Below are positions 58,715 through 62,713 of a stretch of DNA of 64,000 bases, piece after piece. Numbering within the stretch: the first letter of the stretch is position 1; each line of letters begins with the position of its first letter. The position numbers and the translations under genes were made by a program. Below the pieces are notes generated by a model, which had not been told where the DNA came from, did no database searches, and saw only the letters and a program-made list of their open reading frames with translations. Source of the DNA: Elusimicrobiota bacterium (GTDB lineage: Bacteria > Elusimicrobiota > Elusimicrobia > UBA1565 > UBA9628); the NCBI GenBank assembly GCA_016209035.1, contig JACQWX010000066.1:20180-84179 (forward strand). The letters are read 5' to 3'.

Positions 58715-60052
58715 CTAGCGCGGCCTCCGGCCATCCCAGTCGGGCTTGCGCGGCAGGGGAGGCTTTGGATCGATCCTTCCGCCTCCACCCCCGGGATCGG
58801 CGCCGGGGTTTTCACCGGGAGCAGAGGGAGGTGGCGGCGGAACCGGGTACTTCGCCGCGATCCTCCGCGATGTGGCGTTATAGTCCGCCGACGTTCGAGC
58901 CGGCTCTTTCCCCAATTCCCAGAACAGCCACTGGCGCACCATCTCCTGCTGGCAGGCCGAATACCTCTCGGGCACCAGACCGACGGTCGGATCGATAAGG
59001 CTCCAGTACTCCAAGAGCCACAGGTAATACGTGCGGATGTCGCCGACTTCTCCTTCGGTCATGGCTCCAGGTTGGGAGCATTCCCTGGCGGCGATGGCCC
59101 CGAAATATTCGTAGGCTAGGTCGAAGTTCCGCCGCGCTTCGGCCAGACGCGCCGCCCAGGCTGACGCGGTCTCGCGGGACTTGGCGTTGAGCTCTGCGAT
59201 CGAGAGCCCGTCCAGCTTCCCCGAACCTGCCCACACGATCCATTGGACCGCCAAGTCCTCCGCGCAGCCGTCCAGGTCCTCCCTCGCCAATTCCACCGTG
59301 TTCATGTTCCGATCGATGAACCACCGGTACTCCTCGATCCGCCTGTAGGCATCCTGGATCCTTCCCCGACCTACTTCCGTCATCTGGCCCGGCTGGGCGC
59401 ATGCCCACCGGGCCATTTTCCCCAAGGTTTCGCGCGCAGGCCCGAAGTTTTCCGTAATCTCCTTGTACCGTTCCCCGATTCTGATTCGAAGCTCCTTCTG
59501 CTGTTCCTGGATCTTCTTGAGTTCGCCCTGGTAATCTTCGAAACTCTTCCTGTTGTCCTGCTCTTCGGCCGCGGACATGTACGCCGGCGACAGCGGCCGG
59601 CGTTCCCTCCGGGCGGCCAGGATCTTGTCGGAGTATTTCCTCATCCCGGCCGCAATGGCCTTGTACTCGTCCGGCGTCCCCTTCTCGGTAATCCCCAGGA
59701 TGCCCGCGATCTGGTGCTCAGCATTCCATGCGTCGAGTTCGGTCTCCTCGTTCGACTTCCAGCCGGTCACGACCAGCCCCTTGGCGTGGACATACTCGTG
59801 GTAGATGGCCAGGGCGAGCTGGCGGGGATTGTTGATGTCTTTCTTTATGCACTCCTGAAATGCACCGAGGCGGATCAGCGCGGTCCCATCATCCGACGTG
59901 ACCCCCATGGCAATCGGCAACTTGCGCGGGTCGCGGAAACAAAACCGTCCTTCCTCTTCCTTGCAGCCCCAATACTGCTCTTGGCTGAATCGAGGCGAAT
60001 ACTGCGTCAGATATTTCCCATCCAGCAGACCGCCCTTGATGGTGCCTCCGAT
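58715..60052 (-). pseudogene. HExxH-containing putative metallopeptidase-like secreted protein, 5' end removed by IS66-family element
   Basis: HEYVHA...E motif; frame open upstream to the IS left end (IGGTIKGGLLDGKYLTQYSPRFSQEQYWG...) with no start codon context. Confidence 0.55.
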
Positions 60053-60088
60053 GTAAGCGTTCAGGGGCGTGCGCGGACGTCCTGACTT

Positions 60089-61510
60089 TTACGCGGCCTT
60101 CGCCGCAGTCGGCAGCAGGGATTGCGGGCGTTCACCTCGCAGCGAGGCCTCGATGCTGCTCGTCACGTAGTCGACGACGCCGCGCCCTTGCTGCCTCAGC
60201 GTGGCGGTCACCGTCAGCATCCGTTCGGCGAATCGGCTGCCGGCCTCGCTGTGAGTGCCGAAACACAGCTTCCGCCAGATGACGCCGCGCCGGATCGCCC
60301 GCTCGGAGGCGTTGTTGGTGGGGCTGACCCCCGCCAGTCGGACGAACGTCCACATCGCCGGTTCGAGCTTGAGAAGCTCCCGGCATGTGGCCTGCGTCTT
60401 GCCGTGGCCGCAGGCACTTCCCCGCCGCAACAGGGCCTTCACCCGTCGCCGCAGCGCAACCGTGTAGACTCGGAACGTCGAGCGCGCAAGCGTTCCATCC
60501 CGGACGCGATGCCACCACTCGAAGAGGAGCTTCTCCTCCACGAGAAGTGCTTGTCCGATGCGCCCGGCTTTGCCGCCGGCATCGACAAAGGCTTGGAAGT
60601 GCCGTTTGAGATGCGCCCAGCAAAGCTGTCTCCACCGGAGCGGCCACCAGGTGTAACCGCACCAGCGGTCCGTCACCAAGACCCCCAAGGTCTGCCCCAG
60701 CAGTTCCTTGGCGATGTCCGTGCCGCGTGATGCTCGGATCAGAAAGACCGTGACCTGCTGCGTGAAGGCGACCCACAGCCAGACCCTCGTCCTGGAGGCG
60801 CCTTCGAACCAGCTTGTCTCGTCGGCCTGTTTGATGGCCTGCTCTTTGACGTAGGCCTGAGCTTCGCTCACGGGCTCCGCCAGCACCGCGCTCGCTATCC
60901 GCTCGCAGGCCGGGACCGACCCCAGCGACATCCGCAGCCCAAAAAGGTCCTGCATGGCCTCGACCGCCGCCCTTCGGCCCAAACGGTAGAAGCTGGTCAA
61001 CAGCGAGACAGTCGCCACCGCGCGCGGGCCGAAGGCTCCTGAAGGAACTCCCGGAGGCAGGTCGGCGATCGTGACGGCGCTACAGTGGCCGCAGATGAGC
61101 GCGTGGAGCTGGTATTCGCTGATGCGCGGCTTGACCTGGGGAATCTCCGCGACTTGATGCCGCCGCGGCGCCGGGTCCTCCCCGTGCAACGCGGCTCCGC
61201 AGTCGCGGCATTGCGTGGGTTTGACCGGGATGACCTCATCGACGTCGGCCTCCGGCACCAGTTCGCGCTGGTGTCCCGTATGCCCCGGCTGGCCGCCGGG
61301 CTTCCTTCCAGAGCCGGTTTTTGGCGGCGGCGGTGGAAGTGATGGCGGATCGCTGGAAGGAGGCTTGGAGGTATTGCGGGAATTCTGGCCCAGGCGCTCC
61401 TCCAATTCGCTCACGCGCGCTTTCAACCGCCGGTTCTCCTCGCGCAGCCGAGCCACTTCCTCAGCGAGGGCTTTTACTTGCTTCTCAAGCTGACGATTAC
61501 GCTTCGACAT
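60089..61510 (-). CDS. tnpC: IS66-family transposase (TnpC)
   Basis: Leu-rich coiled coil, GQNSRNTSKPPSSDPP, GRKPGGQPGHTGHQRELVPEADV, QADETSWFEG, VLVTDRWCGY, CWAHLKRHFQAF, NNASERAIR. Confidence 0.96.
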   Translation of the reverse strand: MSKRNRQLEKQVKALAEEVARLREENRRLKARVSELEERLGQNSRNTSKPPSSDPPSLPPPPPKTGSGRKPGGQPGHTGHQRELVPEADVDEVIPVKPTQCRDCGAALHGEDPAPRRHQVAEIPQVKPRISEYQLHALICGHCSAVTIADLPPGVPSGAFGPRAVATVSLLTSFYRLGRRAAVEAMQDLFGLRMSLGSVPACERIASAVLAEPVSEAQAYVKEQAIKQADETSWFEGASRTRVWLWVAFTQQVTVFLIRASRGTDIAKELLGQTLGVLVTDRWCGYTWWPLRWRQLCWAHLKRHFQAFVDAGGKAGRIGQALLVEEKLLFEWWHRVRDGTLARSTFRVYTVALRRRVKALLRRGSACGHGKTQATCRELLKLEPAMWTFVRLAGVSPTNNASERAIRRGVIWRKLCFGTHSEAGSRFAERMLTVTATLRQQGRGVVDYVTSSIEASLRGERPQSLLPTAAKAA

Positions 61511-62378
61511 GGCAAAGCCGTTCCCGCCATGGCGAGGCCAGCGGGTAGAGATAGACGTCTTTGATCGGCACGCGCAACTCGCGGGCGCGGTCTTGCCGGC
61601 TGCGACCCTGGGTCTGGCCCACGCACGTCCAATTGGCCGCTCGATAGCAAGTCCCCTTGAAACGCTCGCGCTCGACAAAGGTCTCCAGGAGATGGACGGG
61701 GTGGCCGTATGCGGTTTGCCAATCCTCCGCCAGACGCCGAGCAACGCGTCCCAAGATATGACTGGCCAAGTGAGGCACCTGGACCCATGGCAATATGAGG
61801 AAGCGGTGGTTGTTCGCTACAAACGACAGGCGCCGGGTACGGGTGTCATCGTCCCATCCGATCCATGCGTCCCGCGGTTTCGTCTTCCAGGCCGCGGCGC
61901 CGAACAGGACACAGGCCACATCACGTCCCTGACAATCGCGCACGAGATAAGCCAAGCTCTCGCCCACGGGTCCGCGATAGCCCAGATAGTGGTGCTGGGA
62001 CAAATAGCCCGAGAAGATCGGGCGGTCGGGATGTCTTGGGGGCACCAGCCCCACGTGCAACGGCAGCAGTCCAGCCAGAGGTTCGGCAATCGGTGCGGCC
62101 GCGGGGAGCGAAGCTTGCAACGTAGAAGCGCGCCGTGGGTGGTGGGTGCCGCGACGCGACGGCAATGTGATCGCGCCCCGTCGCTCCAACTTGAGCAGCA
62201 AGCTGCGCGCCGCCATATCCTGGAACCGGCCGGAAGCGGAGCGCCAGTTCCAAGCACGCGTCAGTTCAACCGAGAGCCGGGTCCGATGCCAGGCGGGGTT
62301 GGCGGCGATCAGAGAACGGATCGCCTCGATGTCCGACTCGCCCAAGTCGCGGCCCTGGATGCGGCGGACGCTTTCCAT
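61497..62378 (-). CDS. DUF4338 / DruA-like protein
   Basis: QHHYLGYRGPVGESLAYLV, GAAAWKTKPRDAWIGWDD, VANNHRFLILPWVQVPHLASHILGRVARRLAEDWQTAYGHPVHLLETFVERERFKGTCYRAANWTCVGQTQGRSRQDR. Confidence 0.85.
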   Translation of the reverse strand: MESVRRIQGRDLGESDIEAIRSLIAANPAWHRTRLSVELTRAWNWRSASGRFQDMAARSLLLKLERRGAITLPSRRGTHHPRRASTLQASLPAAAPIAEPLAGLLPLHVGLVPPRHPDRPIFSGYLSQHHYLGYRGPVGESLAYLVRDCQGRDVACVLFGAAAWKTKPRDAWIGWDDDTRTRRLSFVANNHRFLILPWVQVPHLASHILGRVARRLAEDWQTAYGHPVHLLETFVERERFKGTCYRAANWTCVGQTQGRSRQDRARELRVPIKDVYLYPLASPWRERLCHVEA

Positions 62379-62425
62379 GCGTCCACAAGACTACCAAAGA
62401 GGAACAGCGTGAGTCCAGCGGAAAA

Positions 62426-62713
62426 TCACATCAGAGGCTCCCGACCCCCTGAACGCTTACTGGCGGCCTGGGCCTTGTCATGGGCGTCCCTCCAGGCTGT
62501 CAGCAGGAAGAGGTCCCTCTTCGAGATGTCAGAGACGAAGGCGGCTTCGCGCCTGGATTTTTCTTTGTCCTCCAGGTCCTTGAGCTTGCTCTGGGCATCG
62601 AGCCCTATTTTGATGTGGTCCATGATCTCGGTCTGCTGCTCAGGCGTGGCATTGCGGACTTCGGCCCTTGAGGAAGGAGCTATTGCCAGCAACATAGCCA
62701 CCCACAGAATCAT
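62426..62713 (-). pseudogene. Small secreted protein truncated by the IS66 right end
   Basis: Signal peptide MILWVAMLLAIAPSSRAEV; ORF enters the IS TIR at 62460 and ends at 62426. Confidence 0.5.

Follow-up and report, generated by a model that had tools for sequence, protein, structure and literature searches.

A DruA-like (DUF4338) protein encoded ahead of tnpC in an IS66-family element is very likely a transposition accessory factor

Besides the three-gene layout with tnpA, tnpB and tnpC, the IS66 family of insertion sequences includes elements with a single open reading frame (ORF), which form the established ISBst12 group (PMC12898284). DUF4338 (Pfam PF14236) is the domain of DruA, a protein of the Druantia anti-phage system whose function there is stated as not known (PMC7251935); in PMC10853773 DUF4338 is called a GNAT-like domain, there in DndF proteins. 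Mom of phage Mu, also of the GNAT superfamily, places an acyl-type group onto adenine N6 and shields phage DNA (PMC7824862). IS66, DUF4338 and the GNAT fold of DUF4338 are already known. Here we analysed a 64,000-nt stretch of DNA from an Elusimicrobiota bacterium (contig JACQWX010000066.1, positions 20,180 to 84,179; hereafter the window), in which a 2408-bp unit at 60053-62460 joins a DruA-like gene to an IS66 transposase gene. We read this unit as a transposon of the IS66 family and of a two-gene layout, druA-like and then tnpC, that recurs in other genomes; for our explanation as a whole, including the action on DNA proposed for the protein below, we put the probability at about 0.62.

The unit is bounded by perfect 15-bp terminal inverted repeats (TIRs) and holds two genes, both on the minus strand, druA-like and then tnpC (Table 1). 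As originally predicted, the ORF list gave only one ORF besides tnpC, for a 293-aa protein overlapping the tnpC start by 14 nt. A 15-mer pair equally near the gene ends appeared in 1 of 20000 shuffles, and the same 15-mer also delimits sibling copies elsewhere in the window's genome; with its GTAAGCG start, GTAAGCGTTCAGGGG is a TIR of the IS66 type. TnpC matched the IS66 transposase model NF033517 of NCBIfam above cut-off (E = 1e-81) and PF03050 of Pfam (E = 8.1e-29), as an IS66 DDE transposase does; the Pfam domains found in it were DDE_Tnp_IS66, DUF6444 and, below threshold, zf-IS66. The DUF4338 identity of the second protein, for which a profile search had been proposed, was confirmed by PF14236 at 125.6 bits (E = 2.8e-36; gathering cut-off 27). 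No tnpA or tnpB was found in the window element, where 67 nt are left between the druA start and the right TIR, and this sets it apart from three-gene IS66 elements, with which it shares the TnpC family. With the ISBst12 group (e.g. ISDge4, PMC12898284) it has in common a TnpC with DDE_Tnp_IS66 and zf-IS66, GTAA-type ends, the lack of tnpA and tnpB and, in its sister elements, 8-bp target-site duplications (TSDs); it differs from that single-ORF group in the added DruA-like gene. The overlap of druA with tnpC probably reflects translational coupling.

The window's genome (G000) is a metagenome-assembled genome of 4.2 Mb in 136 contigs, 93% complete. It contained one full DruA-domain gene, plus end fragments of sibling copies, most of them 86-90% identical, and three such fragments lay at or near contig ends. 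The sibling on contig C6 kept the first 53 druA codons before being interrupted by other sequence; inspected by eye, that sequence (C6:15715-16196, L058) codes for part of an IS1634-like transposase where the contig ends. Neither for the window copy nor for the siblings in this genome could a TSD pair be matched. The two flanks of the window copy read CCTCCGAT and TGGCGGCC, so that the 8-bp TSD of IS66 is missing here, and its ends sit in two different truncated reading frames; the window copy was therefore probably rearranged after insertion.

Sister elements with intact boundaries were found elsewhere. Genome G868, a single 4.03-Mb contig, held seven copies of a 2413-bp druA-tnpC element, three of them with exact 8-bp TSDs. 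Its two genes are those of the window element and again overlap by 14 nt, and its TIRs agree at every one of the 60 bases compared, if not further. A 2368-bp version was present in three copies in G834, all three with TSD, and a 2492-bp version in viral contig L236 had the TSD TTAAATCA on both sides. All of these elements end in GTAA, and the 8-bp TSD of IS66 is found at the sister two-gene elements of all three sources, so that tnpC with DUF4338 and without tnpA or tnpB is indeed a recurrent IS66 type. Between the G868 and G834 versions, the ratio of nonsynonymous to synonymous substitution rates (dN/dS) was 0.16 for druA and 0.16 for tnpC, values that show purifying selection on druA, as judged from its codons, to be as strong as on tnpC. 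When viral contigs were scanned with single proteins no relative came up, and GenBank phages likewise gave none; an alignment query of the viral contigs found four loci. One 42.7-kb viral contig has the same tnpB-druA-tnpC element at either end (L237 and L238).

The original prediction had placed the DruA-like protein in the position of TnpA and TnpB. This part did not hold: druA as a substitute for TnpA/TnpB was ruled out by elements carrying all four genes, and the single-gene ISBst12 group was already known. Genome G343 contained a 3475-bp tnpA-tnpB-druA-tnpC element in five identical copies, three with 8-bp TSD, and at least nine loci, this one and eight others, have that order. Among the IS66 loci of the survey described below, tnpB lay immediately upstream of druA in 10, with tnpA as well in 9 of those; in at most 10 others tnpC preceded druA.

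The survey, a Pfam model search of genome samples covering the phylum of the window and five others, collected 150 distinct sequences. Their neighbours were classified by profile search, a partner being a transposase that is fused or lies no more than 1 kb away in the same orientation, and partner families were named by Pfam and NCBIfam. Among the transposon-type DruA-like sequences, 105 of 129 distinct ones had a DDE transposase as partner, 44 by fusion, and a transposase on the opposite strand was seen in only 3. The partners were of the IS66 (35), IS4/Tn5 (24, 20 fused), ISAs1 (22, 21 fused), IS701 (7, 3 fused), ISKra4 (3) and IS1634 (3) families and of one family without a name (11). In the 44 distinct fusions the DruA-like part forms the N-terminus of IS4/Tn5, ISAs1 and IS701 transposases. 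An element of druA and the nameless-family transposase, 2556 bp long, was present in G343 in six copies, all six with a 9-bp TSD. These profile-based assignments show a DruA-like module common to at least seven DDE transposase families, three of them with N-terminal fusions. At L141 and L164, which had no recognised partner, another IS4-type transposase lies upstream, and many of the remaining partnerless loci are fragments or lie at contig ends. L003 was considered as an orphan druA and rejected, an apparent tnpC start following it when read by eye. The single genomes G343 and G350 held 23 and 15 DruA-domain matches, with several transposase families at once. In G343, the identical druA-Tn5-type fusions L109 and L110 have swapped flanks, each 9-bp TSD being divided between both copies, a sign of recombination between the two.

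Because exact elements, shared selection and fusions across families coincide, the DruA-like protein appears to work with the transposase and not to be cargo. That it is a transposition accessory factor, linked to transposition, is very likely on the evidence of gene layout and sequence, and this part of the original prediction is upheld by TSD-bounded elements, fusions and constraint.

To describe the protein itself, an AlphaFold2 model was built from 14 sequences (mean pLDDT, the predicted local distance difference test, 84.7). Its N-terminal part looks helix-turn-helix (HTH)-like and is followed by a GNAT-fold domain; the ISAs1 and IS701 fusions keep the GNAT part only, the HTH-like part being missing. 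In a Foldseek search of PDB nearly all top matches were GNAT acetyltransferases (best E = 5.8e-5; template modelling score by target at most 0.65), and phmmer of PDB gave no credible match. The GNAT-like statement on DndF (PMC10853773) agrees independently with this model, although its context is DNA phosphorothioation and not transposons. Generic GNAT models matched none of 25 members, whereas the Mom model PF25680 matched 14 of the 25 (best E = 1.3e-5), the window protein itself not being among these matches up to E = 1. Comparison by hhalign with 13 aligned phage Mom proteins returned a probability of 96.5 (E = 8.2e-10, 166 columns, score 71.6), while shuffled and reversed Mom alignments scored at most 20.0. 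Positions conserved in Mom are kept, as counted over about 120 sequences: S206 in 123 of 123, R192 in 99%, H130 in 98%, D/E236 in 97%, G242 in 98%, Y245 in 98% and G254 in 99%. In the GNAT motif Q/R-x-x-G-x-G/A, R or Q is found in 46 of 90 and A205 in 98%, and the position of the first G mostly holds N or H. Profile comparison and the predicted structure together show the GNAT-like domain to be specifically Mom-like. The whole GNAT domain aligns with that of Mu Mom (PF25680), invariant H, R, S, D/E, G, Y and N positions being common to both; Mom differs in having no HTH-like N-terminal part, and adenine modification by the DruA-like protein is only predicted. Canonical DruA compared directly with Mom gave no signal (probability 0.4). 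Some viral structural matches to the model carry the name homing endonuclease or restriction-endonuclease-like, and GNAT-like domains of such shape may recur beside phage nucleases.

We propose that the DruA-like protein would bind DNA within the transposition complex or close to it and would modify a DNA base there, of the element or of the target, by an acyl-type, Mom-like reaction; such modification would control or protect the element, or time transposition. A parallel is the regulation of IS10 and IS50 by Dam methylation of the host. Mom-like chemistry, suggested by the profiles, the model and the analogy to Mu, is plausible, at somewhat under an even chance. A wider proposal is more tentative still when its parts are taken jointly: one Mom-type enzyme that modifies DNA may have been acquired by many DDE transposon families, some keeping it as a gene of its own and others fusing it to the transposase, and may serve them in marking or protecting their DNA or in timing transposition. 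Druantia DruA and Mu Mom would then be two other branches of this enzyme stock, and the transposon form would bridge them.

Several points weigh against these proposals. As the seed loci were reached through the window protein, the survey is biased to the kin of that protein, and the transposase-class profiles were seeded within the same loci. The PF25680 matches of individual proteins stay under the Pfam cut-off. The glutamate of the Mom ELNR motif (E98) is replaced in DruA-like proteins, and the first glycine of the GNAT pyrophosphate motif is lost (NLAS or HLAS in most); an acyl-CoA reaction is therefore not assured. Plasmid relatives of the window TnpC (Nostoc; Aeromonas ISUnCu16) carry no druA. 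Since these single-gene IS66 relatives lack it, druA is not universally required by TnpC, and together with the ISBst12 group they indicate that some TnpC work without tnpA, tnpB and druA. Complete homologous elements that lack the ORF and carry TnpA and TnpB had been named beforehand as the mark of an accidental insertion; relatives lacking the ORF exist, yet the ORF is no accidental insertion.

The main rival to an enzyme is a non-catalytic subunit for DNA binding or target choice, a GNAT fold without enzyme activity that would tether the transposase to its ends or targets. The HTH-like part of the model fits this, as do the replaced glycine and the loss of E98, and where the ISAs1 and IS701 fusions lack the HTH-like part, their own transposase could supply DNA binding. 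However, residues aligned with Mom invariants rank with the best conserved of the set, although a mere tether should have no need of them, and the part kept by all fusions is the GNAT-like domain and not the HTH-like one. We consider a tether unlikely, if the most serious of the alternatives. A passenger is improbable: here the protein would be a defence or counter-defence gene that rides insertion sequences and benefits host or element during transfer, as its kinship to Druantia DruA and to the anti-restriction enzyme Mom might suggest. The N-terminal fusions to three transposase families speak against such a role, as does the absence of other cargo; PADLOC matches are weak, and the DruE-type helicase domain family PF09369 was not found in the window's genome at its 93% completeness. 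Finally, an unrelated gene trapped by chance between IS66 ends in one genome, for which the missing TSD of the window copy could be cited, is refuted by other genomes, where TSDs flank elements of this two-gene layout, and by the siblings within the window's genome, which share the druA 5' end.

DruA of Druantia type I and the transposon-type proteins belong to the same Pfam family above cut-off (PF14236) and have the RDxxIGW...R core in common, and hhalign aligned the two types at E = 9.3e-10, so that canonical DruA stands as close to the transposon type as Mom does. In contrast to canonical DruA, which has about 370-460 aa and matches the whole profile, the transposon type carries a different N-terminus and the NLAS-type motif, and the window protein covers only positions 34-231 of 297. 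The PADLOC DruA model matched the window protein weakly (E = 0.0088, 13 bits) and canonical DruA at E = 3.5e-112. At 10 canonical DruA loci, no transposase of the surveyed classes was found within 1.5 kb. In an unrooted tree of 119 GNAT-domain sequences canonical DruA formed one clade on a very long branch with full support, apart from all transposon-type sequences, and the window protein fell opposite it across a fully supported branch, grouping with L002, L154 and L003 (from Elusimicrobiota and from one genome in the Planctomycetota sample). Since no fewer than 17 switches of transposase family are required by the tree, the module has passed from family to family repeatedly. As this unrooted split cannot be polarised, the ancestral side is not readable from it, and it speaks neither for nor against the suggested descent of Druantia DruA from transposons.

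In the literature, as far as the sources searched go, DUF4338 is rarely mentioned, and we found no link of it to transposons and none to IS66; ISfinder and most subscription papers lay outside this search, so that priority is uncertain. If our explanation is right, the DruA-like protein is an accessory component that bacterial transposons carry widely and that the searched literature does not tie to transposition, and Mom-like DNA modification becomes a testable biochemical guess for DruA. Lone DruA calls in defence surveys may then be parts of insertion sequences and not remnants of Druantia, and DruA-only Druantia calls need care. In the Ralstonia survey PMC7251935, strains with DruA but an incomplete Druantia gene set could hold transposon-type DruA.

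Table 1. Features in and beside the window element (window positions)
Feature	Position	Strand	Basis
Second flanking gene fragment, host side, outside the element	58715-60052	-	ORF list
TIR, GTAAGCGTTCAGGGG	60053-60067	.	End by the tnpC stop; same 15-mer ends sibling copies C6, C14, C15, C48
tnpC, IS66-family DDE transposase, 473 aa (DUF6444 + zf-IS66 + DDE_Tnp_IS66)	60089-61510	-	Pfam, NCBIfam NF033517
Overlap of druA and tnpC, 14 nt	61497-61510	-	Same length in the 2413-bp G868 elements
DruA-like (DUF4338) protein, very likely accessory, 293 aa	61497-62378	-	PF14236, E 2.8e-36; AlphaFold2 model, pLDDT 84.7
GNAT-fold, Mom-like domain (predicted), about residues 91-290	61509-62108	-	Foldseek PDB; hhalign against Mom
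N-terminal helical, HTH-like part (predicted), about residues 1-70	62169-62378	-	Model secondary structure; alignment starts by partner family
TIR, CCCCTGAACGCTTAC (complement of the left TIR)	62446-62460	.	End by the druA start; also bounds the siblings on C6 and C15
Flanking gene cut by the element, host side, outside the element	62461-62713	-	ORF list; no target duplication

Seven loci (L037, L123, L124, L130, L217, L218 and L230) encode long DruA-domain proteins of about 650-1300 aa in which the domain is split by an insertion, and these long-form loci are apparently non-transposon.
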